Below, piece after piece: positions 2,312 to 44,225 of a DNA stretch of 64,000 bases; position 1 is the first letter of the stretch; each line of letters opens with the position of its first letter. Location: the NCBI GenBank assembly GCA_029167225.1, contig JARFNK010000019.1, forward strand, positions 1 through 64,000, written 5' to 3'. The DNA is from Sphingobium arseniciresistens (lineage in GTDB: Bacteria; Pseudomonadota; Alphaproteobacteria; Sphingomonadales; Sphingomonadaceae). The position numbers and the translations under genes are program-made. Under the pieces are notes generated by a model, which was not told the origin of the DNA, did not search any database, and worked only from the letters and a program-made list of their open reading frames with translations.

Positions 2312-4090
2312 TCACCCGCCTAATTCGCCGGCACGAGCAGATGTTCCGACAGTAGAGGCCGAAAGCAGAACCTGCGCTGCTTTCTTTTCGGGAGAGTCAT
2401 AGGGACCATAGAGCACCGGCCCCAGAAGCTTGCGAGCAAGATCGGGCTTTCCCTGCCGAATCAACTCGCTGCCCAGAAGCATCCGCGGCGTCGGCGCTCC
2501 CGGAACCGCAGCGGCGAGTTTGGCCAGGATTGCTACCGCGGCATCGGGCACCTTTGCGCCAGCTCTTGCGTAGCTTTGAAAGTTGGCGATCGCCGCGACA
2601 GGATTGCGCGGATCGGATTGAAGCGCCAGTGCTATCGTCTCGCGTGCTGCGGCCAGAGCGCTGTCGCGGTCGTCGGCAGGACCAGTTAAGGCCTCGTCTG
2701 TCTGAGCAATGCCTTTCCACGCCAGCGCACGGACGTTTCCGGGTTCCTGGGCGAGAACGCGGTTGGCATCCCGCCGGCATTCTTCGGAAAGCGCAGCGCG
2801 ACACTCCGCTTCCGTAGCCACCAGCATCGCGCCGACATCAAAGGGTGCCTGGGTCGCTTCTGCCCGCACAGTAGATATCCAAGCGAGAGAGGCAGATCGA
2901 GAATGGTCGGCCTCCGGCAGGCTGCCGGAGGCGTCGGGCGGTGGCAGATTGCCGAGCCGGAGCTTCGCCTTGAGGGTGGTAACCTGGACCGGCGAAAGCA
3001 CGGCTACTAAAGGCGTTCCCTGGACAACGGATGGCGCGGAGGTCGCATAGGCCTTCGCTCTCGAAGCGTAACCCATAATCTCTCGGTTGAGTCTCCCGGG
3101 GTCTTTGAAAACCCGAGCGGCTTCAGCCAGAGGTGCTCCCTGTCGGATCGCGGCCATATATTGGGCGAACTGTGCCTGAAGCGCCGGCTTGGGGTTGGAA
3201 AATACGAAGAAATGCGTGATCAACCAGGCGTGGTAAGGGGTCCAGGTCATCCGGCGCGATCGCCAGTCAAAATAGCCGCCTGTCAGTACGTCCCGCGCGT
3301 TCACATCGCCGTAGGAGCGGAAGACCTGGCGAGAGAGTTCGGGCGGCTTGGCATAATCGAGCGACCCGTCTTTTCTGACTTCGATCGTCGAGAACAGCGC
3401 GCCTATCCCATCGAGATACCAGCGGGGATAGGGGGCCGGAACATTCGAGAGGATGAAGTGCTGCGCGAAAGCGGAGTAGACGATCGATTCCCAGGACCTC
3501 ACCACCGGAGGAAGATAGGGCTCCCTCTTCCCGATGCAGTCCGTGCCTTGGGCGGCCAAATCCTCGCAGAAACGATCGTGGGCAAGGCTGGTATTGAGGT
3601 CGACAAGCTGGTCGCTGCGGGCAATGGCCAACACCGCGCCGTCCGCACGAGGATCGTAATAGCGTTGGTTCGAAAAGCTCCTCGCGAAAGGACCTTCTTC
3701 CGCGCGGATGTTTCGCAGCCCTAATTCTTCTAGATCGCCGCGCGAACCGAACAGGGTGATTTCGAGCTTCGGCGCACCATCCTGCTGTCCGGCGGCGCCG
3801 TAAAGCCGCGTCATCAGCGCATGCAGCCGCTCCACATTGCCGGCGACCCGGACCAGTTCGGGTTCGCTTCCGTCGCTGAAGATGACGACATGATCGGTTT
3901 CGGCCCGCTTCCACCCGCTACGCTTTTGCGCATGCTTTTGCGCCGTGACGACGATGTCGGGATCGGCTTTCCCGCCCGCGGGGGCGCGGGCGACATCATC
4001 TGTCTGAGTGCCGCGCGCCGGCGCTGCAATCAACAACGACTGCGTGAGCAATGCGACGATGCTCAGGCAAGACCAACGTCCGATCGACAT
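2312..4090 (-). CDS. secreted gluzincin-like protein with degenerate active site and TPR-like tail
   Basis: A 592-residue protein with a signal peptide (LSIVALLTQSLLIAAPARG) and probably periplasmic. Residues of about 60-330 resemble the DUF1570/peptidase-MA type: a phosphorylase-like start (TDHVVIFSDGSEPELVRVAG) and a late motif PRWYLDGIGALFS that parallels the 'P.WL.EG.A.YF' of gluzincins. The HExxH helix is replaced by ESIVYSAFAQH and the second Glu by Asp, so zinc hydrolysis is doubtful. The C-terminal 200 residues look like TPR repeats. It is divergent from the RiPP operon at 4397 and shares its intergenic region, which suggests a joint role in peptide handling. That link is inferred. 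Confidence 0.6.
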   Translation of the reverse strand: MSIGRWSCLSIVALLTQSLLIAAPARGTQTDDVARAPAGGKADPDIVVTAQKHAQKRSGWKRAETDHVVIFSDGSEPELVRVAGNVERLHALMTRLYGAAGQQDGAPKLEITLFGSRGDLEELGLRNIRAEEGPFARSFSNQRYYDPRADGAVLAIARSDQLVDLNTSLAHDRFCEDLAAQGTDCIGKREPYLPPVVRSWESIVYSAFAQHFILSNVPAPYPRWYLDGIGALFSTIEVRKDGSLDYAKPPELSRQVFRSYGDVNARDVLTGGYFDWRSRRMTWTPYHAWLITHFFVFSNPKPALQAQFAQYMAAIRQGAPLAEAARVFKDPGRLNREIMGYASRAKAYATSAPSVVQGTPLVAVLSPVQVTTLKAKLRLGNLPPPDASGSLPEADHSRSASLAWISTVRAEATQAPFDVGAMLVATEAECRAALSEECRRDANRVLAQEPGNVRALAWKGIAQTDEALTGPADDRDSALAAARETIALALQSDPRNPVAAIANFQSYARAGAKVPDAAVAILAKLAAAVPGAPTPRMLLGSELIRQGKPDLARKLLGPVLYGPYDSPEKKAAQVLLSASTVGTSARAGELGG

Positions 4091-4396
4091 GCAATAGGCC
4101 TCGCGATCCAGCGCTACGCGCGCTCCAGATTGATAGAGTTGGAGTATGCACGACGCTCACTACCTTTTCCAGCGCATCAACGCGACATCCCTGGAAATGG
4201 AGATAAAGGGATGCCGGATCAGTTCGTGCATGTTGAAAGTTGGATAATAATGCAGTGTTGTCAGTCGTAACGAAGGTTACCTAAAAGGTAATCATCATTC
4301 TATATTAGCTTCACCGCGAATCCATTTGACTCGCCCCTGCGAAAATAAATATCCTTCCTGTGCCATGTGTGGCTACTCGCAAGACAGGAGCTGTTT
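4091..4396. promoter_or_regulatory. divergent intergenic region, RiPP promoter candidate
   Basis: A 306-base non-coding stretch between two divergent genes, more AT-rich than its surroundings from about 4230. TTGACT (4326-4331) followed by TAAATAT-like bases near 4346-4352 is a weak promoter candidate for the plus-strand RiPP operon; its spacing of about 14 is short. AGGAG at 4386-4390 is the ribosome site of the precursor gene. No further peptide gene with a plausible ribosome site was seen here. Confidence 0.3.
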
Positions 4397-4606
4397 ATGT
4401 CCGGTTCTGTTCGATCGATTCATTCGCTGCTTGCCCGAGAATTAACGATCTCCGAAATCAAAATGGTGTCCGGTGGCCAAACCTGCGGTGAAGGCAACAC
4501 CGAGGTCACCACCGAGCCTACTTATTGCGATACCGCCGGCGGTTCGCCCTGGGATACGTCGGATCGATGTGACGACGATGGAAGCTGGGATGTCAGCTGC
4601 GACTGA
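4397..4606 (+). CDS. RiPP precursor peptide with double-glycine leader
   Basis: A 69-residue peptide starting at an ATG with AGGAG seven bases upstream. Residues 1-27 form a double-glycine leader ending ELTISEIKMVSGG, the class cut by C39 peptidases. The predicted 42-residue core begins QTCGEGNTEVTTEPTYC and ends DDDGSWDVSCD. It is rich in Asp, Glu, Thr and Ser and has four cysteines. Thr/Ser with Asp/Glu are what graspetide ATP-grasp ligases join as esters, which fits the ligase encoded at 5508. The cysteines may form disulfides or be modified. Fic, ATP-grasp and C39 exporter genes follow on the same strand. The final structure cannot be read from sequence. Confidence 0.75.
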   Translation: MSGSVRSIHSLLARELTISEIKMVSGGQTCGEGNTEVTTEPTYCDTAGGSPWDTSDRCDDDGSWDVSCD

Positions 4607-4632
4607 AGTCGAAGACTATATTGCCTCTGACG

Positions 4633-5490
4633 ATGCCAAGCCCAGCAACAGGGGGCACGGAAGATAGAAAAATCTGGTCGCCTGTTGCACCCGGCTTCCG
4701 ATACCGAAATAGACATTCGCTCGATTGGCGGTCCCTCGAAAACCGGATCGTCCGGCTCAACGAACAATACAGGCATTCCCCCTGGCGCTGCTTCGGCAAC
4801 GAAGCGAAATGCGCATTGCTGTTGCGCGCCGGATTGCGCGTTCCGGGCTCGCTCGATTTTTCCGCTCCGGCCGCGTTCGAAGCGCCGCAGCTCGATCGGT
4901 TTCTGATCAGGCCCGGCATCGAACCGATTGTATATACCAGCTGGCAGCGGTTTTCGGCTTGGCAGATCGACCAGCATTGGATCGAGCAGGTAGCCGCGTT
5001 GCTGACCGGCACGAACAGGAAGATGCGAAGCGCACGCGTCGACAAGTCGGCCATTTGTGGTCTTGCGCCAATGCGATATGCGCGATTGGACGACATTCCC
5101 TTCTGGCCTGAGGCGATCGCGGCAATTCAAAACTGTAAGGGCCTTACCCCTGTGCAGGAGGCAGTGCTGACCCACGCCACGTTCGTCCTGTATCACCCGC
5201 TCGATGATGGCAATGGCCGTGTCGCGCGATCGCTGTTTCACGCTTCGCTGCGCCGCCGGGACCAGATCGACGCCCCTTTTCTACCGCTTGGACCAAGCTT
5301 CTACAGTGCGTCCTATCTCAAGCTGGGGCTTCTGCGCAGATTGTCCCAAACTGGCGACTGGGACGCCTATCTGGATCGCGTGCACCCCATAATCGAATTT
5401 GCGATTTCGCTTCTGGAGCATGTCGATGACGCGGACGCGCTGTCGGGCAGCATAAGTGCATTATCGCAGACAATGACATCACCGGATTGA
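4633..5490 (+). CDS. Fic-domain protein in RiPP operon
   Basis: A 285-residue protein with the Fic signature HPLDDGNGRVAR; the catalytic His is residue 188. Fic enzymes transfer AMP or another phosphate-containing group from a nucleotide to a hydroxyl side chain. The N-terminal 150 residues match no family I recognise. No clear [S/T]xxxE[G/N] inhibitory helix was seen. The ATG at 4633 was preferred to the upstream TTG at 4621. It lies between the precursor and ATP-grasp genes, so it probably modifies the precursor or its final product, or acts as a self-protection or toxin element. The fold is secure; the substrate is inferred from context only. Confidence 0.8.
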   Translation: MPSPATGGTEDRKIWSPVAPGFRYRNRHSLDWRSLENRIVRLNEQYRHSPWRCFGNEAKCALLLRAGLRVPGSLDFSAPAAFEAPQLDRFLIRPGIEPIVYTSWQRFSAWQIDQHWIEQVAALLTGTNRKMRSARVDKSAICGLAPMRYARLDDIPFWPEAIAAIQNCKGLTPVQEAVLTHATFVLYHPLDDGNGRVARSLFHASLRRRDQIDAPFLPLGPSFYSASYLKLGLLRRLSQTGDWDAYLDRVHPIIEFAISLLEHVDDADALSGSISALSQTMTSPD

Positions 5491-5507
5491 CAAGCGAGGT
5501 GCAAGCG

Positions 5508-6671
5508 ATGGACAAACGCATTCTCATTGTGACCAAGCTCAACGATGAGCATGCCCATCTCATCGCGACGGGCCTCGAGATGATGGGCGTGACACCGAGC
5601 ATCTTCCGCTTCGGCATGATGCCTGTTCACGAAACCCATACGATTTCATTGGGCGATAAGGTGACATTCGACGTCGAAGGCACCGCGCTCCTCGACGAAG
5701 ATATCCCTTATGATCGGGTCTGGCTGCGACGCATCGGTGGCTCGTCGGTCAAGTTGCTGGACGTTCAGGAAAGCGACAAAGCCTATGTCTCCAATATAAT
5801 GATCGCCTATCGCGCGTCGCTTTTTGCCTTTCTGGATCGTCTTGCCGCCGAGCGGCCCGGTGTTATGGTCAACGGATATTGGGGAAAGTTGGCGGCGGAA
5901 AGCAAGGTGCTGCAACTCTGGCAGGCGCGCAAAGTCGGCCTGTCGGTACCCGCAACATTGCAGTCCAACGACATTGAGGCAATCCGACGCTTCCAAGACG
6001 AGCACGGCGGGCGCATTATCTGTAAACCTCTCATCCCGCAGATGTGGCAAGGCGAGGATAGCCTGGCATTTGCCTATACCTCGATCATGCCGCCGGTCGC
6101 CTCGTTGCCGGCCGAAGCTCTTTCCCTGCACCCGGCCATTTACCAGCCCTATGTCGAAAAGGCGTTTGAAGCCCGGGTGATCATCTTCGGCGGTCGGCAA
6201 TTCGGCATAAAGATCGATTCCCAGAGCGACCCTTTGTCGATTGTCGACTGGCGCGGAAAGCGCCTTCTCAAAGACAATAATGACAATTACCGATTGCCGC
6301 CGGAAGTCTTCGCGCAATGTCTGGATTTGATGCGGGCGCTGGGCATTTCCTATGGCGCATTCGACTTCATTGTCACGCCCGCCGGCGATCATGTCTTTTT
6401 GGAAGTGAACGAAGCCGGCCAATTCCTGTTCGTCGAGGACTGCGCGCCCGGGGACAAGATAGCCCACGCCTTCTGCCATTTTCTCATTCACGGGACCCTG
6501 CAGGACTGGAGAGACGAGGACGTGACTTTCACGCTGAAGGATTTGCTGTCCTCGGCCGACGCGCTGGCCCGCAAGCAGGCGGATTCCCTCTACCGCGACC
6601 ACGACCGAACCTCCCGGATATCCAGGATGGATGATCTTGTGGGATCGCATTACGTGTCCGACGCGCGCTGA
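5508..6671 (+). CDS. ATP-grasp peptide ligase (graspetide maturase-like)
   Basis: A 387-residue protein. The N-terminal pre-ATP-grasp part opens RILIVTKLNDEHAHLIATGL and contains RVWLRRIGG. The ATP-grasp core has IICKPLIPQMWQ, a substrate/phosphate region (ARVIIFGGRQFGIKI) and the metal-binding end DHVFLEVNEAGQFLFVED. This resembles the MvdC/MvdD-type enzymes that join Asp/Glu side chains to Thr/Ser or Lys in graspetides. The ATG at 5508 has GCGAGGTG upstream and follows the Fic gene by 17 bases. Its probable substrate is the acidic, Thr-rich core of the peptide at 4397. The family is fairly sure; the linkage chemistry is inferred. Confidence 0.78.
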   Translation: MDKRILIVTKLNDEHAHLIATGLEMMGVTPSIFRFGMMPVHETHTISLGDKVTFDVEGTALLDEDIPYDRVWLRRIGGSSVKLLDVQESDKAYVSNIMIAYRASLFAFLDRLAAERPGVMVNGYWGKLAAESKVLQLWQARKVGLSVPATLQSNDIEAIRRFQDEHGGRIICKPLIPQMWQGEDSLAFAYTSIMPPVASLPAEALSLHPAIYQPYVEKAFEARVIIFGGRQFGIKIDSQSDPLSIVDWRGKRLLKDNNDNYRLPPEVFAQCLDLMRALGISYGAFDFIVTPAGDHVFLEVNEAGQFLFVEDCAPGDKIAHAFCHFLIHGTLQDWRDEDVTFTLKDLLSSADALARKQADSLYRDHDRTSRISRMDDLVGSHYVSDAR

Positions 6672-6673
6672 AC

Positions 6674-6985
6674 ATGTGCCCACTCGCTTCCGCGCACCCC
6701 CCGCCTCTTCACGAGGCTGACGCACAGGGCAGCGGCACATCGACCCTGTTTCGATCCGAAATATTCCGCGCGCGCCGGGCACGGGATAATGCGATCAAGA
6801 TTCCCGTGATGCCCTGGGCTTGGATTGCCCTGCTGGGTGCCGTCCTGTCTGCCGAGCTGGTCGGCCTCTACGCGATCATTCTGATGCAGTTCGATGTCCC
6901 GTTTGAAGCCGTTGCCGGGCGGCGCTTGGCCAAGCCAGCAGACCGTGCCGCTCCGGCGCCAGACCTATTGTCGCGCAATCCGTGA
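6674..6985 (+). CDS. short membrane protein resembling the HlyD adaptor N-terminus
   Basis: A 103-residue protein with one transmembrane helix (WAWIALLGAVLSAELVGLYA). Its beginning, TLFRSEIFRARRARDNAIKI, resembles the cytoplasmic start of HlyD/CvaA-type periplasmic adaptors ('LFR.E.L.AR....G'), which normally continue for about 350 residues. Here the protein ends about 35 residues after the helix, so the barrel and hairpin domains are absent. It starts 2 bases after the ATP-grasp stop and overlaps the ABC exporter start, so it is part of the operon. It may be a remnant or a minimal exporter partner. The HlyD likeness rests on a short stretch. Confidence 0.55.
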   Translation: MCPLASAHPPPLHEADAQGSGTSTLFRSEIFRARRARDNAIKIPVMPWAWIALLGAVLSAELVGLYAIILMQFDVPFEAVAGRRLAKPADRAAPAPDLLSRNP

Positions 6986-9108
6986 TGTTCATTCCCCTCG
7001 CCGCGGGCCGCCGTTCCCGGCGCATCGAGATGGTGCGCCAGACGGAATCGGGCGAATGTGGCCTCGCGGCGCTGGCGATGATCGCCAATTTTCACGGTAA
7101 CCCCATCAGCCTTCCCGAACTACGCCGACGGTTTCGCGCCTCCAGTCGTGGAAGCACGCTGGAATTTCTGATGCACATGGCCGGGGCGATCGGCTTCTCC
7201 GCAAGACCTATCAGCATCCCGCTGGAAGGTCTTGCGCACATCCACCTGCCGGCCATCCTGCATTGGAACATGAACCACTTTGTCGTCGTCGAGCGCATCC
7301 GGGCCGACAAGGCCCTCATTCATGATCCCGAGGGAATATCCGACTGGCTCCCCCTGGAGGCGGTATCCCGGCATTTTACTGGCATAGCGCTGGAATTACT
7401 GCAGGTCAGGCAATTCGATCAGGCGCAGCCGCGACCCCGCCTCGACCCCATCAAATTGCTTCAGGGCGCTTCGGGAATTCGGCGCTCGCTGGTCCAGATA
7501 CTGACCCTCAGCATATTCCTCGAACTCTATACCTTGATCTCCCCTTTTTACCTGCGATTTGCGGTCGATGTCGTGCTGCCGTCGCGCGGCCTGAATTTGA
7601 TGACCGTACTGGCGATCGGCTTCGCCCTGTTGACTGCCACCAATGCGCTGACCTCGCTGCTACGATCTCTGGTGATCGCCTTCTCCAATGCTGCGGTCGG
7701 CCACACGCTCTACGTCAATGTGGCGCGTAAGCTCCTGCGATTGCCCATCGATTGGTATGAGCGGCGGCACATTGGTGATGTGATGTCGCGCCTCCAATCG
7801 ACCGCCCCGATCAGACAATTCCTCACGGAAAACAGTATCGGTGCATTCATCGATGGGTGCCTTGGCGCGCTCAGCCTGGTGGTGATGCTGACGTACAGCT
7901 TGCAATTGTCGATGGTGGCCATCGGCTTTCTGGTGATGATTTTGATCGGGAAGATGGCGTTTCTTGCCCCAAAGCAGCGTGCCCAAGAGACAGCCATAGC
8001 GATGACCGGCCGAGAACAATCGGTAATGATGGAGACGCTCAGGGGGATAACGACCTTGCGCGTTCTGGGCGGAGAGGATGATCGGCTGCAATATTGGCAC
8101 CGCCGGCTTGCCGATTCCGTCGCGGCTAATCTGTCTGTCGCCCGGGTGAATGTGTGGCAAGATTCCGTCGGAACATCGCTGAACGCCCTCGAATCGGTCA
8201 TATCCATCTATCTTGCTATCGGGCTTGTGCTGTCTGCCGATTTCAGTCTGGGCATGGTCTTTGCCTATATGGCCTACAAGACCCAGTTCCTACGCCGCAC
8301 ATCCTCCCTGCTGGACCAGATCATCGCCTTCAGGATGTTGAGGCTGCATGTGGACCGTCTTGCCGACATCATGCTTACTGACGAGGATAAGGCATTCGAT
8401 CGTGAGGCTATATCGGCCAGGACATTATCGGGCCGGGTTGAACTGCGCGGCGTGGGTTTCCGATATGCGCCTACCGATCCCTATGTGCTGTCGGGAGTCA
8501 ACCTCGTGATCGAGCCTGGAGAGCATGTGGCGATCACCGGGCCGTCCGGCGAGGGAAAGAGTACGCTCATCAAGATCATTCTCGGCCTCATCGAACCGTC
8601 GGAGGGCGCCGTATTCGTCGATGATATCCGGCTCGAGGCGTTCGGGTTGAAACACTATCGGGCGCAAGTTGGCGCCGTCCTGCAGAATGACGGATTATTT
8701 GCCGGATCGATCGCCGAGAATATAGCGCTTTTCGATAAACTTTCGGACATGGACCGAGTTATCGCTTCCGCCAGGGCTGCGGCGTTGCACGACGACATTG
8801 CAGCAATGCCCATGGGCTATGAAACATTGGTCGGCGACATGGGCGCCGCGATCTCAGGCGGGCAGAAGCAACGACTCATACTGGCGCGCGCCCTCTACAG
8901 ACAGCCTCGCCTTCTCGTGATCGATGAAGGGACCTCGCATCTGGACGAGGACAAGGAGCGCCAGGTCAATGCGGCGATAGCGGCATTGGGCGTGACGCGA
9001 ATAGTCGTCGCGCACAGCAGGCAGACGATCTCCGCAGCGGATCGGATACTCCGCTTGTCTGATGGGAAATTGGAAGACGGACCTCATTCGGACATGGACG
9101 CAGAATAG
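6985..9108 (+). CDS. C39 peptidase-containing ABC exporter
   Basis: A 707-residue peptidase-containing ABC transporter. The N-terminal C39 domain has Gln19 and catalytic Cys25 (RQTESGECGLAAL), His98 (HWNMNHFVVV) and Asp114 (IHDPEG). A six-helix membrane domain follows. The nucleotide-binding domain has Walker A GPSGEGKST (about 519-527), signature ISGGQKQR (about 623) and Walker B LLVIDEGTSHLD. It should cut the double-glycine leader of the peptide at 4397 and export the core across the inner membrane. The start is ATG 6985, inside the upstream stop (TGATG); GTG 6982 is the alternative. A full-length HlyD adaptor is not encoded next to it. Confidence 0.93.
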   Translation: MFIPLAAGRRSRRIEMVRQTESGECGLAALAMIANFHGNPISLPELRRRFRASSRGSTLEFLMHMAGAIGFSARPISIPLEGLAHIHLPAILHWNMNHFVVVERIRADKALIHDPEGISDWLPLEAVSRHFTGIALELLQVRQFDQAQPRPRLDPIKLLQGASGIRRSLVQILTLSIFLELYTLISPFYLRFAVDVVLPSRGLNLMTVLAIGFALLTATNALTSLLRSLVIAFSNAAVGHTLYVNVARKLLRLPIDWYERRHIGDVMSRLQSTAPIRQFLTENSIGAFIDGCLGALSLVVMLTYSLQLSMVAIGFLVMILIGKMAFLAPKQRAQETAIAMTGREQSVMMETLRGITTLRVLGGEDDRLQYWHRRLADSVAANLSVARVNVWQDSVGTSLNALESVISIYLAIGLVLSADFSLGMVFAYMAYKTQFLRRTSSLLDQIIAFRMLRLHVDRLADIMLTDEDKAFDREAISARTLSGRVELRGVGFRYAPTDPYVLSGVNLVIEPGEHVAITGPSGEGKSTLIKIILGLIEPSEGAVFVDDIRLEAFGLKHYRAQVGAVLQNDGLFAGSIAENIALFDKLSDMDRVIASARAAALHDDIAAMPMGYETLVGDMGAAISGGQKQRLILARALYRQPRLLVIDEGTSHLDEDKERQVNAAIAALGVTRIVVAHSRQTISAADRILRLSDGKLEDGPHSDMDAE

Positions 9109-33845: not shown

Positions 33846-34511
33846 ATGAGTCTGGCGCTCCGTGACAATCTCGAATTTTGCATAACAGGGGGACGTGCCA
33901 TCTTCCTGGACTTGGCAGCAGGCCGCTATTTCGCGCTCTCGGATCGCCATTTCGCAGCATTTCAGCGTTGGATAAGTGGTGAAGTCTCCCTCGAGGATGG
34001 CACAGACCGGCTCAATGGCCTTGTCAGCCAAGGAATCCTAATCGAAACGGATGGGGCAGATGTCAGGCCAAAAACCTCAATCTCAGGGATCGCTTTGCCG
34101 GCCGTACGCTTCCCTGTCACCCGGTTGCGAGCTTCACCGACATTGGTGGCCTGGATAATCTTCGATCGACTTCTATGGAGGCGACGCATAAAAAACTGGC
34201 CCTTCGTACGCTTGATCAAGAGCGTGCGAAAGTCGGCTCGGCCTGATCGACTTTCATCGAACTCAATCGTGCTGCCCAGGATCATCCGATCTTTTGAAAT
34301 CGCAGACCTTATTATTGGCAACCATGATCGCTGTCTGGAACGATCGCTGGCCCTAGTTGCGGCTTGTAGAAGATATGGTCTCGCCAACACGTTGGTCCTT
34401 GCCATTCAAGCCAATCCCTTCGCGGCTCATTGCTGGGTGCAGAACCAATCATATATCTTGAACGATCATCCAGATCGCGTGTCGATGTTCACTCCGATAC
34501 TGGCTCTATAA
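33846..34511 (+). CDS. lasso peptide maturation protein B (fused B1-B2)
   Basis: A 221-residue protein with both halves of the lasso B function. Residues 1-75 are a PqqD-like leader-recognition domain (CITGGRAIFLDLAAGRYFAL). Residues of about 95-221 are the transglutaminase-like Cys protease with Cys163 (HDRCLERSLAL), His195 (FAAHCWVQ) and Asp207 (YILNDHP). It removes the leader after the TK dipeptide of the peptide at 33658. Its stop overlaps the cyclase start (TAATG), so the two are coupled. Fused B proteins are the norm in proteobacterial lasso clusters. Confidence 0.9.
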   Translation: MSLALRDNLEFCITGGRAIFLDLAAGRYFALSDRHFAAFQRWISGEVSLEDGTDRLNGLVSQGILIETDGADVRPKTSISGIALPAVRFPVTRLRASPTLVAWIIFDRLLWRRRIKNWPFVRLIKSVRKSARPDRLSSNSIVLPRIIRSFEIADLIIGNHDRCLERSLALVAACRRYGLANTLVLAIQANPFAAHCWVQNQSYILNDHPDRVSMFTPILAL

Positions 34512-36292
34512 TGCGTTTGGAATATCTCCTTATCGTGGAGGCATCCAGGATGGCTGCAACGATGGAGCGATATTTTTCCGGGCGCACGGCTCTTGAGCTT
34601 CAGCACGCAAGCGACAATTTTATCCTATTCTCCAATATTCCAGCAGATGTGATAAATCTCCCTGAAAGGAACGGGGTCATAATCGGCAAAATATTCGACC
34701 GTAATGGATCCCCCCAACAGGTCGGAACGATTCCTGTCGTGGAAGGCGAACTCATTCAGAAAACCGCCGGTCGGCGTCTCATTAATAAATACTGGGGAAG
34801 CTATGTCGCTGCGATCGCTTCCAAAGAGGGGACTTACGTCTTACGCGATCCCTCAGGCGGGTTGCCTTGCTATTATATCCGTCAAAAGCGTCGCACGATC
34901 TTTTCTTCAGATGTCAACATTCTCCTCAATGCTGCCGGGTTCAGTCCGGAAGTAGACTGGGAAGCGGTCGGACAATCCTTGTACTTTAACCAGTTTCCCG
35001 CCGAAGCAACCGCTCTTGTTGGCGTAACCCAGATCCGCTGCGGAGAAGCTCTTCTTTTAGGAGACACGGGCATTGAAAAATCGCAGTATTGGGACCCTTG
35101 GGATCACATCCATGGCGCATCGGCAAGCGGCGAAGAGCTTGCCAAGCAGCTTTATCACATCGTTCGAAATACAATCAGCACCTGGGCTGCTGCATATCCC
35201 CGCGCCCTGATAAGCCTCTCGGGCGGCCTTGATTCCTCGATTGTCGCATCCTGCCTGGCGGCGGCTCAGGCGAACATTGCCTGCGTTACCGTTGTAACAC
35301 CGGACCCTGTCGGGGACGAGCGCGTCTATGCCAGGGCCGTTTCGCAGGCAATCGGCTCCGAACTGATTGAAATTTTCGAGCAGGTCGATCTCACCGACTA
35401 TACCAAATCGGTTGCAGAAAACATGCCGATGCCCTCTGGTAAGGCGCATGAACGCGCCTACAATGAGGCAATCCGAGAAGGTGTCACTCGGTCTTGCCCG
35501 AATGCATTCTTCGTGGGTGCCGGCGGCGACAACGTCTTTTATCTCACTCACTCTGCGCGACCTCTGGTCGACCGCTTTCAAGCAGAAGGTTGGTCGACCG
35601 GCATCTTACAGACATTGAACGATATTTGCACGATCACAGGGGCAAGTGCCTGGCAAGTTATCCGCGAAAGCTTCAGGCTAACCCGAATGCGGAATACCGG
35701 CATTCGCTGGCACGCTGTTCCGGACTATCTCTCCCCAGAATTTGTAAAGACCCGATGTGCTAAACCGCCTCAACATCCGTGGCTGACTCCGCCCGATGAT
35801 GTACCGCTCGGAAAAATTGGGCACGTAACAATGCTCCTGCGTGCGATGAATCATCTCGAACATCGCGATAAATCGCTTAATGTCCCGATGATCAGCCCTC
35901 TTCTTTCTCAGCCCATAATGGAATTCTGCTTGAGAGTTCCCTCATGGGAGGCTTGTGCCAACGGAAAGGATCGTGCCGTCGCGCGAACGGCCTTCGAACG
36001 CCATCTTCCACCAGCGGTTATCCGCCGCGGAGCAAAAGGAAGTCCCGACGGTTGGGTTGCTCAATTCATTGCAACTCACCGGCAAAGTATCGCCCACCGT
36101 CTTCTGGATGGCGAGCTTGTGCGACACGGAATTCTTGATCGCTCAGCGACGGAGGCCATACTTCGTCCCGGCGTCCGCCTCTCTCCAACAGACGCACCTC
36201 GCCTGATGGCTCTTTTGGACACCGAAGCATGGGTGCGGCATTGGTCACACGTCGAACGCACAGCCGGCGAGGGGCGAGCGGCGCCGCCGTGA
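34511..36292 (+). CDS. lasso peptide cyclase C (asparagine synthetase-like)
   Basis: A 593-residue protein of the asparagine synthetase B fold. The N-terminal glutaminase-like domain starts MRLEYLLIV without the catalytic Cys2, as in lasso C proteins. The synthetase domain has the PP-loop SGGLDSS (about 237-243) and an ATP-binding continuation (CVTVVTPDPVGDERVYARAV). It adenylates the core Asp side chain and closes the macrolactam with Gly1. The ATG at 34511 overlaps the B stop. Base composition is more AT-rich than in the tra genes, suggesting separate acquisition. Confidence 0.9.
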   Translation: MRLEYLLIVEASRMAATMERYFSGRTALELQHASDNFILFSNIPADVINLPERNGVIIGKIFDRNGSPQQVGTIPVVEGELIQKTAGRRLINKYWGSYVAAIASKEGTYVLRDPSGGLPCYYIRQKRRTIFSSDVNILLNAAGFSPEVDWEAVGQSLYFNQFPAEATALVGVTQIRCGEALLLGDTGIEKSQYWDPWDHIHGASASGEELAKQLYHIVRNTISTWAAAYPRALISLSGGLDSSIVASCLAAAQANIACVTVVTPDPVGDERVYARAVSQAIGSELIEIFEQVDLTDYTKSVAENMPMPSGKAHERAYNEAIREGVTRSCPNAFFVGAGGDNVFYLTHSARPLVDRFQAEGWSTGILQTLNDICTITGASAWQVIRESFRLTRMRNTGIRWHAVPDYLSPEFVKTRCAKPPQHPWLTPPDDVPLGKIGHVTMLLRAMNHLEHRDKSLNVPMISPLLSQPIMEFCLRVPSWEACANGKDRAVARTAFERHLPPAVIRRGAKGSPDGWVAQFIATHRQSIAHRLLDGELVRHGILDRSATEAILRPGVRLSPTDAPRLMALLDTEAWVRHWSHVERTAGEGRAAPP

Positions 36293-38460: not shown

Positions 38461-41043
38461 TCACCAAGCCTTGGACAAAGTGAGGCTGATAACGCGTCCA
38501 TATGTCGACTGATTGATCGAGTCATACCGCAGCCCGACTGGATCCGTTGTTCGGACTAGCGCGGGCTTCTCGTTGAAGAGATTCTGAACGCCGACCGTCC
38601 AGGTGACATTCGAATAAATTCCCCGACTAGCGGTCGTCTGTATTGTAGCAACCGTATCGAGCGTGACAAATGATCCCACTTTGACAAATGGTGAGTATCG
38701 GTTGTCCAAAGTGCTACCAATGTAGTTGCCGGTTGCCGTGAACGCGACATTGTCCCTTTTCCAACCGGCGTTAAGCCGGCCTCGCCAATGGGGAGGTCGA
38801 AAGATGACGCCCGCCTGCTCGATGGAAGGCTGAGACCTGGTCAATACCCTTCGACTGTCGAGGTAGCTGAGCGACCCTTTAAGCGCTATGCTTCCCGTTG
38901 TACCAAGATCACGGGAATAATCGACTGTGGCGTCGATCCCTTGAACGGCCTCGAGCGAAATGTTCTGCAACCGGTCATTTAGGATAGCGGATACGTTGGA
39001 TGCGCTAAAGCTCTGACCGCTAAAGTTCGAAAATACGCCGTTTATGCTATCGATCGTTGTCAGTACCTGCTCTGAAGTCGGATTGAGCTGGACGTAATCG
39101 GCATAGATTGATTGTAGCGCACTGGTAATCGGTGAAAGAGGGGAGCTTACGCGGTCGCGATAACGGATTCTGAAGTAGCTCACCCCTAGACGAAGCCCAT
39201 TTACAAACTTCGGCTCAACCGTTGTTGAAATAGTCCATGTGGTCGAACGTTCTGGCTTTAAATTGCTATTGCCACCATAGAGATAGAGGACAGGATAGCT
39301 GCTTTCGGGGGCCGGATTGAATATGCTTCCCCGCACCAATTGCGCATTCGATGTCTGCCCGGTCTGATAGAGTGTTGGAGCTTTGAAAGACTTTCCCCAG
39401 CTGGCCTTAAACTCAATCCCATCTATCGGTGCATAAATAAAACCAAGTTTTGGGGTTAGTATGCGCTGTATTTTACGATGGTCCTCATAGCGGATAGCGC
39501 CGACCATATTGAATTTATTGATTGCGGAAATATTGTTATGTGGTGAGACGAGCGGCAGGAAAATCTCACCATATCCGAACACAACATTTCGCGTTTCATC
39601 AAATATATTTATCGGAGCTTCTATACCTCCAACGAAACGGCGCGAGTCTACCCGGAGTTTATTCGATCGATAGCCGCCGCCGAGAGCCAGCCTCACATCG
39701 CCGCCGGGCAGAGAAAATAAGGGGCCTTCCCCGCCGACTTCGATTGTGCTCAACTGATTGGCATAGTCCGGTCTTGCGAGCGATATTTCTACGCCAGCGT
39801 CATAAGCACGATTTGCAATCGATGTGTCGCTTTTGCTATAGGTTCCAGCCACCCGGATCTCCCAGGTCGATGGTAGCGTGAACCGAAGAGACGGCGAAAT
39901 CGACCAGCTGTCTACTGTCGACGCCAACGCGTTACCGTCCGTATAACAGCTCGCCCCTACGATGTAGGGCATGCAGCTCGAGAACGCCCGGTGCATATAA
40001 TGCCCATCGATCTCGAAGGTCGCGGTGTTGCTGATTTGCTGCTGACCCGCGAGGATCAGACTGATTTGCTTCTGTGCTGGAATGAGCGTGGAGTCAGAAG
40101 GCAGATTGCTTGTATATGATCGATGGCGCGCTGCGATCTCGTCTGACTTTTGGTAATCTGCCGCAATCATGATCGACCCCGAACCCCAATCGGGGCCGCC
40201 AACCATATTATATTGCTGTGTGAAACCACCTCCATCGGTCGGTGCGCCAATGCGGGTGGACGTAATCAGGCCGTCCACGCTACGACGCAGAACGACATTG
40301 GCAACGCCGCCGACTGCATCCGATCCATAAAGCGCAGAGGCGCCATCCATGACGACGTCGACGCGCTCGATCGCTGCCAGCGGTATTGCCGAAATATCGA
40401 CAGCCTGGTCTGTTGCGTCAAACGCAACACGATGGCCATTGATGAGCGTGAGCGAGGCATCTGCCCCAAGTCCACGCAGATTCAGCGCCGAAGAGCCGGA
40501 CACATTTGTAAAACCCCCTTGGCCGCTTCCGGCGATCGTCGGGCTCTGGCCACCAGCGAAGTTCTGAGGGAGATCGCGGATAAGTTGGCCAAGGTCCGTT
40601 TGCCCAGACCGCATCGCATCTTCCCGCGTTACGGTCGTTACGGGCGAGGTCGAAGGCGCGCCACGAATTCGTGACCCGGTGACGACAATATTCTCACCTG
40701 AGTTCAATGCGTCATCTGATGCCGCTGAAAATCGCTGCCGAATGAGGATGGTCCCATCGCGTTCCACTGCTGTCAATCGGGTGCCTCTAAGTACCGTCTC
40801 GACCGCTTCAAGCGCAGTATAGGTCCCGTTGAGCGGTGGAGCTTGCCACCCCTTCACCGCTTCGGGGCGAAAGATGATTTCACGGCGGCTGGAACGCCCG
40901 ATTGCGCGTAACGCGCCGTCAAGGTCCTGCCGACCGAGATTCCATTCAAGCTTTTGTTCTGGTGCAGCTAACGCTGGTGTTGCCATGCCCATTAGCGCAT
41001 ACGCGAACATCGAACCGACCGGCCACCGTCCAAACTCTTTCAT
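38461..41043 (-). CDS. TonB-dependent receptor with N-terminal signalling domain
   Basis: An 860-residue outer-membrane receptor. A signal peptide (MFAYALMGMATPALA) precedes an STN signalling domain (about 30-100: LEWNLGRQDLDGALRAIGRS), a plug (NIVVTGSRIRG, LRGLGADASLTLINGHRV) and a beta-barrel ending in an aromatic residue (VISLTLSKAW). The STN domain signals to FecR and FecI encoded upstream. In lasso loci this receptor is thought to import the peptide for the isopeptidase. The ATG at 41043 has GGGGG upstream; earlier in-frame ATGs lack a signal peptide. Confidence 0.88.
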   Translation of the reverse strand: MKEFGRWPVGSMFAYALMGMATPALAAPEQKLEWNLGRQDLDGALRAIGRSSRREIIFRPEAVKGWQAPPLNGTYTALEAVETVLRGTRLTAVERDGTILIRQRFSAASDDALNSGENIVVTGSRIRGAPSTSPVTTVTREDAMRSGQTDLGQLIRDLPQNFAGGQSPTIAGSGQGGFTNVSGSSALNLRGLGADASLTLINGHRVAFDATDQAVDISAIPLAAIERVDVVMDGASALYGSDAVGGVANVVLRRSVDGLITSTRIGAPTDGGGFTQQYNMVGGPDWGSGSIMIAADYQKSDEIAARHRSYTSNLPSDSTLIPAQKQISLILAGQQQISNTATFEIDGHYMHRAFSSCMPYIVGASCYTDGNALASTVDSWSISPSLRFTLPSTWEIRVAGTYSKSDTSIANRAYDAGVEISLARPDYANQLSTIEVGGEGPLFSLPGGDVRLALGGGYRSNKLRVDSRRFVGGIEAPINIFDETRNVVFGYGEIFLPLVSPHNNISAINKFNMVGAIRYEDHRKIQRILTPKLGFIYAPIDGIEFKASWGKSFKAPTLYQTGQTSNAQLVRGSIFNPAPESSYPVLYLYGGNSNLKPERSTTWTISTTVEPKFVNGLRLGVSYFRIRYRDRVSSPLSPITSALQSIYADYVQLNPTSEQVLTTIDSINGVFSNFSGQSFSASNVSAILNDRLQNISLEAVQGIDATVDYSRDLGTTGSIALKGSLSYLDSRRVLTRSQPSIEQAGVIFRPPHWRGRLNAGWKRDNVAFTATGNYIGSTLDNRYSPFVKVGSFVTLDTVATIQTTASRGIYSNVTWTVGVQNLFNEKPALVRTTDPVGLRYDSINQSTYGRVISLTLSKAW

Positions 41044-41117
41044 CGTTGCCCCCAACGTCATTCCGGCCTCGTTCGAGACCGGTTCCATTGGGGGCAACGA
41101 CGAGCAAAGAGAGCCGA

Positions 41118-42227
41118 TTATGATGGCGGGCGACAATTTCCTTTTGGAAGGGCAGGGCACCGTCGGGCCAGTGCAATCGAGTTAGGCCCACTAATGACTG
41201 CCAGCCCCAGTACGTCCCCCAGATTGCGTGCCAGTCGCGCGCTGTCCGTGATACGGAAATTTCCCGAGACCCGAACATCATCTATATCGGGTGTTGCGCC
41301 CATCAAGGGAATGGCAGCATAGCGATTGGCCTCCGCGAACAGGTCTCCCAGACGAACATTCCTATATTCCTTCAATCCGTCAGGCCATTCACTGTCATTG
41401 GCCTGTGCCTTGACGACGTCGAGGGCAAGGGGTGTCGGAGCGTTGCGCAGTTCGACCTGCTGGCCTGGAGAGAGTCGAACCGTCGCTGGTGCACGCTCCG
41501 TTGCGGGGGCGTCTGTCGTGACGTCAACGGCTCCTCTCATTAATCGCACGACAATACGGTTGTCCGGGAAAAGGTTGACGTCAAAGATCGTCCCCCGTGC
41601 TGTCACTGTTCCGCGGCCGGCATAAACCGTAAAGGGCCGCCGCTCATGAGCGACGGTGAAACGGGCGCGCCCGCGCAGCAAGCGAAGATTTCTTCGCTCG
41701 GCGTCAAAATCCACCAGTACCAGGCTGTTCGTATCGAGCGCGACGACAGAACCGTCATCGAGACGAAACGATCGGATTTCGCCAGTGGCTGTAGCAATTT
41801 TCAGTTGGGCAGGGCCATCGGATGTGCCAGGCGCCGAGCCTATGGCAAGCGAGGGGTGTTTAATATCATCACGCGGCGAACCTGCAGCCCATTGCGCAAC
41901 AAGGGCAACGGCTCCGAGCATCGCCAGTATAAGCACCGCGCGTTTTTTCGTCTTGGACCGTGACAGGCTCTGCCGGATATCGTCGCCGGGCGCGGCATCG
42001 GAAGTGAAGGCGTCGTCCTCTGGCGGGTCCTTCAAACGCTTGCCGATGCTGTAGGCTTCTGCAATGCGGTTATAGGCGGCGCGGTGAAGCGCCCCGCGTG
42101 CCAGCCATGCTTCGAATGCCTTGCGTCTGACTTCTGCTTCCTCCGGGTTTCGCATGATAGCGAACCAGTCGGCTGCCTCTTCCCTGAGTTGTCCATGCTG
42201 ACGCGGCGGATCTGTGTCTTCCATCAT
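41118..42227 (-). CDS. FecR-family anti-sigma factor
   Basis: A 369-residue inner-membrane protein. The N-terminal cytoplasmic anti-sigma region (REEAADWFAIMRNPEEAEVR, FEAWLARGALHRAAYNRI) is of the DUF4880 type. One helix follows (AVLILAMLGAVALVAQWAAG), then the periplasmic FecR domain (RSFRLDDGSVVALDTNSLVL, VTARGTIFDVNLF). It carries the receptor's signal to the sigma factor encoded immediately upstream, which it overlaps by 4 bases (ATGA). Confidence 0.9.
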   Translation of the reverse strand: MMEDTDPPRQHGQLREEAADWFAIMRNPEEAEVRRKAFEAWLARGALHRAAYNRIAEAYSIGKRLKDPPEDDAFTSDAAPGDDIRQSLSRSKTKKRAVLILAMLGAVALVAQWAAGSPRDDIKHPSLAIGSAPGTSDGPAQLKIATATGEIRSFRLDDGSVVALDTNSLVLVDFDAERRNLRLLRGRARFTVAHERRPFTVYAGRGTVTARGTIFDVNLFPDNRIVVRLMRGAVDVTTDAPATERAPATVRLSPGQQVELRNAPTPLALDVVKAQANDSEWPDGLKEYRNVRLGDLFAEANRYAAIPLMGATPDIDDVRVSGNFRITDSARLARNLGDVLGLAVISGPNSIALARRCPALPKGNCRPPS

Positions 42228-42790
42228 TCCTGTTCCAGAGCTGCGTCGATATGGGCAAGCGCGCGGGCGACATGATATTGCACAGTGGGGATTGAAATTC
42301 CCATGCTTTCCGCGATCTCGCGGTAGGTCAGTTCCTCCACCCGGTGAGCCAGGAATATCTCTCGCGTCCGTTGAGGTAGCTCTTCCAGGGCGCGCCTGTA
42401 AATCCGCATCACGTCTTCGGCCTCGATGCGTGCGGCCTGATCCGGCGCGACTGCCACTTCGAAGTCTTCGCCGATCGGCACATGAAACGCCAGGAGACGG
42501 GTCTCGAGGCGCTTGTACCGATCCAGCAGAAGATTTCGGGCGATGCGCTGGAGATAGGCTGCCGGTCGTGGAAGACTAGTCTTGGCCATGCAGCCAACCA
42601 GACGGGCAAAGGATTCCTGTACGAGATCACCGGCGTCATCCCGCGAGCGTAAGCGGCTTTGAAAATATCGCTGCAGCCGCGGCGCTTCGGTTTCGTAGAT
42701 CTGTTGCACGTCCGCCATCCCGGCTCTTGGTTTTTTCTGAGCGACATCGTCTCTCAGGCCTTGTGGCAGATTGAAATTCTCAGACGACAT
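42224..42790 (-). CDS. ECF sigma factor, FecI type
   Basis: A 188-residue sigma factor with region 2 (YFQSRLRSRDDAGDLVQESF, LPRPAAYLQRIARNLLLDRY) and region 4 (EELPQRTREIFLAHRVEELT, YREIAESMGISIPTVQYHVA). It is paired with FecR and a TonB receptor and should direct transcription of this operon, possibly including its own genes. The ATG at 42790 has GAGGA upstream and was chosen over GTG 42808. Confidence 0.9.
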   Translation of the reverse strand: MSSENFNLPQGLRDDVAQKKPRAGMADVQQIYETEAPRLQRYFQSRLRSRDDAGDLVQESFARLVGCMAKTSLPRPAAYLQRIARNLLLDRYKRLETRLLAFHVPIGEDFEVAVAPDQAARIEAEDVMRIYRRALEELPQRTREIFLAHRVEELTYREIAESMGISIPTVQYHVARALAHIDAALEQE

Positions 42791-43286
42791 GAAATCACGG
42801 TTCCTCACGACGTGGCAGTGCCGTCCTTGCTAGTGCAAGGGAGAAGCGGTGTGAGGTGAGCCGAGTTGTCGCCCAACGACGCAACCGGCGCTCGACCCGT
42901 ATGTCGAGCTTCGAGATACCTGACAGGATAATCCTGCGGGCGGCTGCCAGATTCCAGCCCGCATTGGTATTATGCCGTGAGAGCAGGACTCAATCAAGCT
43001 GCCGGTATTCTTATCCTATCGGTACATCTCCATCTCTAACTTGGATGCTCGGCATGACGCGATAAAATGTCTGAGGTTTTGAGTGGATTCCAATCGTTCG
43101 CAGGCATGAAAATTATCCGGCATCACAGGCCGCTTCCAACACAGCGATGCATGTTCACCGCGCCCCATGCGGCGAATAAGGCCGGTAATTACCGCATAAC
43201 CAGCAGGACCGGGAGATATCCCGGGAGTCGCTGTCGGATTTCAATCCGCAAGCAGCATTTGGACGGCATCAGGCATCGTATCGGCT
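42791..43286. other. 496-base region without a clear gene
   Basis: No convincing gene was found between the FecI gene and the MNT-HEPN gene. It must hold the promoter of the fecI-fecR-receptor-isopeptidase operon. Two small palindromes lie just past the 3' end of the MNT-HEPN gene: CGGATT/AATCCG (43235-43248) and CCGGGA/TCCCGG (43209-43224). They may act as weak transcription stops. Short frames in the region lack ribosome sites and family likeness. Confidence 0.4.
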
Positions 43287-44225
43287 TCACGGCTCCGCTT
43301 TTGCGTCCGTCTCCGCAGCAATTTTCAACTTCGCAATGCGTTCCGAACAGACCTCATGCACGAGGGCGCCAAGTATCTCTATTCTTGTTTTGAGCCACTC
43401 GAGTTGTTCGGATGAAATCTCAAAATGTTTCGAATGCTGGCCTTTGCGATAAGCGTCCTTCAGCTTCTGATACATGGCGCGGTCGGCATGCGTTGCACGG
43501 GGCCAGGCATCAAATAGCCGCCTATCGAGGCCTTCTGCCATGCCCCTGAGAAATACGATGTTCGTGCTGCGCGGAGCGTAGAAGGTGAATGTCGTCAAAA
43601 CGCATCTGTAGAGTTTTTCAGTCGCTTGGTGAAAATCAAAAGCTGAGTCTTGATACCAGCCTCTTTCATAACCGATTTCAGCGAACGCAAAACGTCGCAT
43701 CGCCCCGGGAAACAAATCTTCGAAATATTCCTTCGCCATAAGATACGACTGTTCGGGCGTTTTGGGCTTAGGATTTGCGAGCGGCCGATCGTCGGACTGG
43801 TACAGGACCACACCATCCTTGGCGATCTCGGTGAACAAAAGCCGTCCATGGGAAAGGCCGTCATTCACCTGCTGCAGCGTATGCACGATGAAGTTGACCG
43901 GCGTGCGGATGATCTTCTCAACCTGATGGGCGTCGAAGAGGCGTTGTTCCGTTGCTTCCCAATAGAGCGCGCCGTCCGTCAATTCCTTCTGGTTGACGAT
44001 GACCAGGATATCGTAGTCCGACATGAACTGGTTTGCGTCGAAGGGCGCATCGACCCAATCGCCCCTGGCATAAGAGCCGAACAGGATGATCTTGAGGATC
44101 CGGGCCGACTTGCGCCGGCCCGTCGCCTCCTGGGTCGCCTCACGGAACCCCTGAAATAGCATCTCCACGACGCGGTCGAGCTCGCGCTGCTTGGCGCTCG
44201 GAAGATGATCGAGGTCGGTACGCAT
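43287..44225 (-). CDS. fused nucleotidyltransferase-HEPN protein
   Basis: A 312-residue protein. The N-terminal minimal nucleotidyltransferase domain has LFGSYARGDW and SDYDILVIV, the GS..RG and D.D metal-binding pattern. The C-terminal half is a helical HEPN-like domain (AMAKEYFEDLF-type start, YERGWYQDSAFDFHQATEKL). Separate MNT and HEPN proteins form toxin-antitoxin pairs in which MNT AMPylates HEPN; here the two parts are fused. It may be a self-contained stress or defence protein, or a tRNA- or antibiotic-modifying enzyme. The function is inferred. Confidence 0.78.
   Translation of the reverse strand: MRTDLDHLPSAKQRELDRVVEMLFQGFREATQEATGRRKSARILKIILFGSYARGDWVDAPFDANQFMSDYDILVIVNQKELTDGALYWEATEQRLFDAHQVEKIIRTPVNFIVHTLQQVNDGLSHGRLLFTEIAKDGVVLYQSDDRPLANPKPKTPEQSYLMAKEYFEDLFPGAMRRFAFAEIGYERGWYQDSAFDFHQATEKLYRCVLTTFTFYAPRSTNIVFLRGMAEGLDRRLFDAWPRATHADRAMYQKLKDAYRKGQHSKHFEISSEQLEWLKTRIEILGALVHEVCSERIAKLKIAAETDAKAEP

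Follow-up and report, generated by a model that had tools for sequence, protein, structure and literature searches.

The closest described relatives of the locus considered here are the graspetides (microviridins, plesiocin and their kin), in which a Mvd/Mdn-type ATP-grasp ligase is encoded beside a small precursor. In a published survey (PMC8939145), genes for C39-type ATP-binding cassette (C39-ABC) exporters and for HlyD rank with the most frequent neighbours of graspetide ligases. A comparable arrangement is found in a five-gene operon of Sphingobium arseniciresistens (assembly GCA_029167225.1), located in the first 64,000 nucleotides of contig JARFNK010000019.1, the whole stretch analysed and hereafter the window, with the difference that a Fic gene lies inside the operon. 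Table 1 of the same survey lists 18 associated families without naming Fic, and the term is absent from its main text and from that of a second graspetide paper (PMC13097080). By its gene content the operon is a graspetide-type system, distinguished by the Fic gene. The predicted enzyme very probably belongs to the pathway, and we see an even chance that it transfers adenosine monophosphate (AMP) to, or AMPylates, the peptide itself. As a tentative reading, to which we give a probability of roughly 0.38, we propose that AMP transfer has been repeatedly recruited in C39-exported graspetides of sphingomonads, where two Fic clades and a SelO/MchC-like family would fill the same role and yield nucleotide-bearing cyclic peptides.

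The MccH47 and MccE492 clusters use C39-ABC export, and we know of no ATP-grasp ligase in the clusters of class IIb siderophore microcins. These microcins (MccH47, MccE492; MchC/MceJ) resemble the proposed system in that a member of an AMP-transferase family, the SelO-like MchC, serves in their maturation (PMC3281104); a sphingomonad cluster related to the operon (genome G110) has a MchC-like gene, whereas the window has no SelO/MchC-like gene. With the Fic AMP-transferases (SoFic, FICD, IbpA) the window's Fic shares the HPxxDGNGRxxR core motif, and its PDB matches are Fic proteins, but it is short, similar to them over the core only, and lies in a peptide operon. Microcin C7 is a peptide-nucleotide antibiotic to which the predicted AMP-bearing peptide of the window would be similar in kind; its AMP is put on the C-terminus by a ThiF-like enzyme unrelated to Fic. 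Searches of the open-licence literature returned no Fic in a graspetide cluster, no Fic family in a pathway for ribosomally synthesized and post-translationally modified peptides (RiPPs), no Sphingobium graspetide, no Fic domain in papers on RiPPs, ATP-grasp and C39 peptidases and, among the 20 best-ranked of 244 papers on RiPPs and ATP-grasp, no mention of SelO; the only paper found to join AMPylation, RiPPs and Fic appears to be a Staphylococcus pan-genome study. If the proposal holds, the Fic family, known from protein modification in signalling and toxicity, would also supply peptide-tailoring enzymes, and graspetides would gain a nucleotide group, a RiPP modification class not found described in the literature searched. 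It would furthermore offer a possible reason for the SelO-like MchC in siderophore microcins, both cases being AMP transfer to an exported peptide.

The five adjacent plus-strand genes that the initial annotation described are all present. They span 4397-9108, with intergenic gaps, calculated from the coordinates, of 26, 17, 2 and -4 bp in gene order:

4397-4606, plus strand: precursor peptide, 69 residues, with a double-glycine leader and a predicted 42-residue core
4633-5490, plus strand: Fic protein, 285 residues (Pfam PF02661, motif HPLDDGNGRVAR)
5508-6671, plus strand: graspetide-type ATP-grasp ligase, 387 residues (NCBIfam models, PDB matches)
6674-6985, plus strand: membrane protein, 103 residues, with one hydrophobic stretch
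6982-9108, plus strand: C39 peptidase/ABC exporter, 708 residues (Pfam Peptidase_C39, ABC_membrane, ABC_tran)

As in graspetides, the precursor is short and adjacent to the modification genes, and its leader is followed by a core in which Thr/Ser and Asp/Glu abound. Its cleavage region reads ...LTISEIKMVSGG before the predicted cut and QTCGEG... after it, and the predicted core holds seven Thr, four Ser, one Tyr, eight Asp, three Glu, four Cys and no Lys, with a calculated monoisotopic mass of 4474.66 Da in reduced form. The double-glycine leader and the C39-ABC exporter (Peptidase_C39, E = 4e-30) occur in one operon, as in systems for C39-exported peptides. The ligase matches the NCBIfam MvdD, SAV_5884 and MvdC models at E values of 6.5e-43 to 1.3e-40, all below their cut-offs; because the MvdD-type match (E = 6.5e-43) scores 147 bits where the equivalog cut-off is 475, its sequence is assigned to the Mvd/Mdn family as a divergent member. 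Its best PDB matches (E about 1e-28) include 5ig8, 5ig9 and 7m4s, which we take to be microviridin-type ligases, and D247 and R249 are invariant in an alignment of five ligases; DxR residues are a functional mark of graspetide ligases.

Fic AMP-transferases carry the signature HPFx[D/E]GNGRxxR. The window's Fic passes the Pfam cut-off for the family (E = 1.2e-6, 29.7 bits versus 24) and retains the catalytic letters of the motif, with the consensus F replaced by L; its N-terminal half has no Pfam match. A Fic toxin-antitoxin module is marked by an internal [ST]xxxE[GN] helix or a cognate antitoxin gene; a motif scan of the window's Fic did not find the inhibitory motif and the preceding gene encodes the precursor, which makes such a module improbable, a novel antitoxin aside. 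The 103-residue membrane protein has no Pfam or NCBIfam match and aligns with HlyD in hhalign over 31 columns (E 0.0018, probability 15%); it may be a reduced HlyD-type adaptor or a putative immunity protein.

Within the genus, 94 genomes were searched with the ATP-grasp protein, that of the window among them; eight match, and two of these besides the window reach 94-95% identity. Both of these, G450 (Sphingobium sp. AS12) and G467, have all five genes in the same order, within a shared block of 90-91% DNA identity that starts at window position 2269 and takes in a divergent 592-residue gene; the five genes are therefore not chance open reading frames (ORFs). Against each relative the precursor shows seven synonymous and no non-synonymous changes, and omega is 0.22-0.29 for the Fic, 0.13-0.16 for the ligase, 0.11-0.14 for the exporter and 0.42-0.53 for the membrane protein. 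The Fic evolves under purifying selection. A scan of the genome collection with a Fic alignment gave seven loci, one of them the AS12 operon, and tblastn of the precursor on plasmids gave three matches, none significant.

For co-occurrence, the ATP-grasp loci examined were all 17 from 397 genomes of the family, all seven from the 94 of the genus, all five from 385 of the class and two of 74 plasmid records, giving 31 distinct loci beside the window with duplicates counted once (L126 = L077; L063). Fic was sought in ORFs of at least 60 residues with a profile built from 43 Fics, and C39 by Pfam in the window and in genome G043 and elsewhere by full-length similarity to those two. Six of the 31 loci have a C39 exporter, and they amount to five sphingomonad lineages when the window and its near-copies are counted once. 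In three of these lineages, the window's (three genomes), G424 and G043, Fic and ligase are no more than 2 kb apart; G110 and G431 have no such Fic. Compared with the 25 loci without C39 (3/5 versus 0/25), a Fisher test gives p = 0.0025, or p = 0.015 when the window's lineage is left out (2/4 versus 0/25), figures that pertain to a split by C39 made post hoc, to few lineages and to 25 loci not collapsed to lineages. One of these 25 has an ordinary Fic 8.7 kb from its ligase. Five plasmid ATP-grasp loci, out of 61 records, were added later, two with C39 and three without; Fic is then present in three of seven C39 lineages (p about 0.005; 0.027 once the window's lineage is dropped), and Fic or a SelO-like gene in four. 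The initial annotation had tied the case for Fic to its conserved presence in such clusters, and the outcome is divided: Fic stands in three of the five sphingomonad ATP-grasp/C39 lineages, but most ATP-grasp clusters lack it. Of its picture, a graspetide-type operon stands, with Fic very probably a working part.

Within the genus, strong matches to the window's Fic occur only in its own lineage of three genomes. The 397 family genomes yield matches in 31, clearly best, besides itself, in G349 and G327, and 39 of the 385 class genomes match at E <= 1e-9, the window's excepted through frames of 286-733 residues and only from model position 93 on. Beyond the near-copies the nearest Fics (G349, G327 and Sphingomonas glacialis) are 28-31% identical to it. 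In the tree the window's Fic joins three standalone Fics (support 96/93), apart from a clade (support 99/98) formed by the Fics of G043, G424 and the Sphingomonas plasmid pISP0, with identities of 27-35%. Fic probably joined ATP-grasp/C39 clusters twice, on a tree that is unrooted, carries a long-branch warning for L080 and L131 and is compatible with a single origin.

In G043 (locus L131) one strand carries a precursor, a 117-residue CEPC-motif gene, the Fic and a gene resembling those of TonB receptors (Plug E = 0.008, under the cut-off), while the opposite strand carries the ATP-grasp gene, a short gene that looks adaptor-like by eye, and C39. The CEPC-motif gene (4673-5026) is thioredoxin-like by eye with no Pfam match, and the precursor that precedes it is Cys-rich. 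The Fic of this cluster is the only one found in the 3.9-Mb genome; genome-wide, G424 has three and G110 and G431 none. The G424 cluster includes HlyD and C39, and 1.9 kb separate its ATP-grasp gene from the Fic. Under uniform placement, the chance of the observed closeness is about 0.001 for G043 and 0.003 for G424. Among ten genomes of the genus of G043, ATP-grasp matches occur in two, G043 and G182, the locus of the latter having no C39 and no Fic. Plasmid pISP0 was found by Fic similarity alone, and its Fic starts 1 bp downstream of a remnant of a C39-type ABC exporter; the remnant is interrupted by the insertion sequence (IS) IS5, lacks the C39 part and is closer to C39 exporters than two other ABC proteins compared, and no ATP-grasp gene is recognisable near the Fic. 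A search of 229 family genomes with the second clade returned only G043 and an ordinary Fic (G004). Eight Fics were scanned: the active-site motif is intact in all, and [ST]xxxE[GN] is absent in seven and present in that of G424. Three plasmid Fics, one each from Rahnella, Gluconobacter and Sphingobium, come with no recognised RiPP genes in the annotation. As a separate observation, a DUF6932 protein, nucleotidyltransferase-like by eye, is encoded tail-to-tail with the G424 Fic (L080 10376-10873).

The ATP-grasp/HlyD/C39 cluster of G110 has no Fic and instead a SelO/MchC-like gene that overlaps the C39 gene by 4 bp; no such gene was found in the window or the other ATP-grasp loci tested, and an ordinary SelO is present elsewhere in the G110 genome. 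Relatives of the G110 gene occur in 21 plasmid records (best E 8e-20); the annotation assigns several of them to the SelO family, to MchC or to bacteriocin maturation. Two of these, 31% identical to it over about 280 residues, have genes for HlyD and a C39-type exporter in their clusters. To our knowledge, the chemistry of MchC on the peptide is not established as AMP transfer. According to published work, MchC is required for microcin maturation and forms a distant SelO subfamily (PMC3281104), and SelO transfers AMP (PMC12663964; also the Pfam family name). In view of this maturation role, the peptide would be the likeliest substrate. Furthermore, that two Fic clades and a SelO-like protein, from different families, bring the same predicted chemistry to one kind of cluster suggests that what is useful there is AMP transfer. 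The Vibrionaceae plasmid clusters L157 and L158 combine SelO/MchC-like, HlyC-type acyltransferase, HlyD and C39-type exporter genes, and one of them carries two more, for a radical SAM protein and a glycosyltransferase.

We outline the following pathway as a candidate. The operon would produce an exported graspetide-type peptide on which the ATP-grasp ligase closes side-chain rings, expected to be esters of Thr/Ser with Asp/Glu because the core has no Lys. Fic would move AMP from ATP onto one of this peptide's hydroxyls; our guess is the single Tyr, with Thr or Ser as alternatives. Each of the three Fic-cluster cores has one Tyr and no more, which in so few cases may be coincidence. Cleavage behind the double glycine would fall to the C39 domain, and secretion of the product to the ABC exporter. 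The action of Fic on the peptide, AMP as the group moved and the target residue are what we infer. GNGR is the AMP-transferase form of the motif, distinct from the Doc-kinase form, and for this reason a phosphate on the core, which the initial annotation had offered beside AMP, is less likely.

Several findings, besides the post hoc split and the unrooted tree noted above, weigh against the pathway outlined here. G431 holds the ATP-grasp protein (34-35% identity) that comes closest in the genus search once the near-copies are set aside; its C39 cluster has neither Fic nor a SelO-like gene, and no Fic match was found in the whole G431 genome. The same two genes are missing from a C39 graspetide cluster on a Legionella adelaidensis plasmid and from another on an Alteromonas plasmid, whose ligase is IS-interrupted. 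The 25 loci without C39 have no Fic within about 8 kb, as far as sequence is available; it is shorter than 7 kb on one side in seven of them (L055, L063, L065, L122, L123, L124, L129) and shorter than 2 kb in four (L063, L065, L123, L124). The G110 gene matches Pfam SelO at E = 0.002 only, below the cut-off, and G424 is a weaker case because two opposite-strand genes lie between its Fic and its precursor. The precursors of the relatives were mostly called by eye (best phmmer E 0.011). Finally, no RiPP genes were seen beside the Fics of G349, G327 and S. glacialis in the sequence at hand (the G327 contig measures 7.3 kb and that of S. glacialis stops 2 kb after the Fic). Since G349 and G327 hold the clearly best family matches besides the window's own, the idea that Fic generally marks graspetide clusters was rejected.

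AMPylation of targets such as gyrase is toxic as a rule, which counts against the alternative that otherwise survives best, though we hold it unlikely: that Fic is a self-protection gene and AMPylates the cellular target of the peptide in the producer. Bacterial Fic proteins can AMPylate gyrase (PMC13327609), the position of Fic between precursor and ligase is compatible with such a role, and Pfam and NCBIfam assign none of the operon's genes to a known immunity family. However, nothing recognised in the operon reverses AMPylation, and the 103-residue membrane protein could be the putative immunity protein instead. Moreover, a SelO/MchC-like gene holds a similar place in G110, and MchC, in the passages cited above, acts in peptide maturation.

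A further step down in probability, Fic might modify a pathway protein (the ligase, the exporter or the leader) as a regulator or partner, leaving the core untouched. Partner-protein-dependent graspetide ligases do exist, as reported in PMC13097080, but an active-site motif preserved in all eight Fics would be needless for a mere structural partner. We regard as improbable that Fic activates the core, with an AMP ester of Ser/Thr as leaving group for dehydration, then Cys addition or further change, and no AMP kept. The four Cys of the window core and the five of the G043 core, beside Ser/Thr or Thr, would suit such chemistry, whereas Cys is absent from the G424 core, and nothing in the operon matches a lyase or cyclase family in Pfam or NCBIfam. 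Least probable of all is that Fic is a chance neighbour or a toxin-antitoxin-like plasmid Fic that landed in the operon: the window copy does lie on a probable plasmid, the pISP0 copy on a plasmid, and the other relatives of the window's Fic are standalone genes, but the gene order kept in three genomes, the Fic omega of 0.22-0.29, the second clade in the same setting (chance of such closeness under uniform placement about 0.001 in G043 and 0.003 in G424), the lack of [ST]xxxE[GN] in seven of eight Fics and the precursor preceding the window's Fic speak against it.

The exporters add nothing to the argument for AMP transfer. In a seven-row tree the three Fic-linked exporters group together (support 86/93), and those of G424 and G043 are 41% identical to the window's. 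Of six plasmid exporters (from 862 records), three are 49-50% and three 41-42% identical to it; no Fic or ATP-grasp gene occurs within 7 kb of any of the six, and HlyD accompanies all five annotated ones. Because Fic-less plasmid exporters without ATP-grasp are thus closer to the window's (49-50% versus 41%), a Fic-linked clade of C39 exporters was dropped and not used as evidence.

With its 64 kb the window covers the start of a 104,748-base contig (C32) from a 6.6-Mb genome with 6% estimated contamination. An IS6100 match at the window start and the F-type conjugation genes TraG, TraH and TraC that follow make it probable that the replicon carrying the operon is a conjugative plasmid. Two further features lie next to the operon:

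2312-4090, minus strand: 592-residue gene, divergent from the operon (Pfam TPR_19, weak, below the cut-off)
4275-4293, no strand: palindrome GGTTACCTAAAAGGTAATC, upstream of the operon, a possible operator kept in both relatives

Between the window and both relatives, only two central bases of the palindrome differ. A lone acyl carrier protein gene is present close to the contig start (813-1052). DUF6624 proteins adjoin the ATP-grasp peptide clusters of G431 (L076 12611-13717) and of a Xylella plasmid (L161 6975-7550), and no DUF6624 similarity was found between the neighbour genes of G431 and G424. The window also holds a second RiPP cluster (33846-36292), which is lasso-peptide-like: a 221-residue protein that by eye resembles a PqqD/transglutaminase B protein overlaps an asparagine-synthase-type cyclase, the latter matching NCBIfam lasso/macrolactam cyclase models below the cut-off. 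Near it, TonB-dependent receptor, FecR-like anti-sigma and extracytoplasmic function (ECF) sigma factor genes stand in a row (38461-42808), followed by a nucleotidyltransferase-HEPN gene (43287-44225). A gene that looks similar by eye (L083 11320-12252) lies about 0.6 kb from the standalone Sphingomonas glacialis Fic, on whose other side TonB/FecR/sigma-like genes are found.

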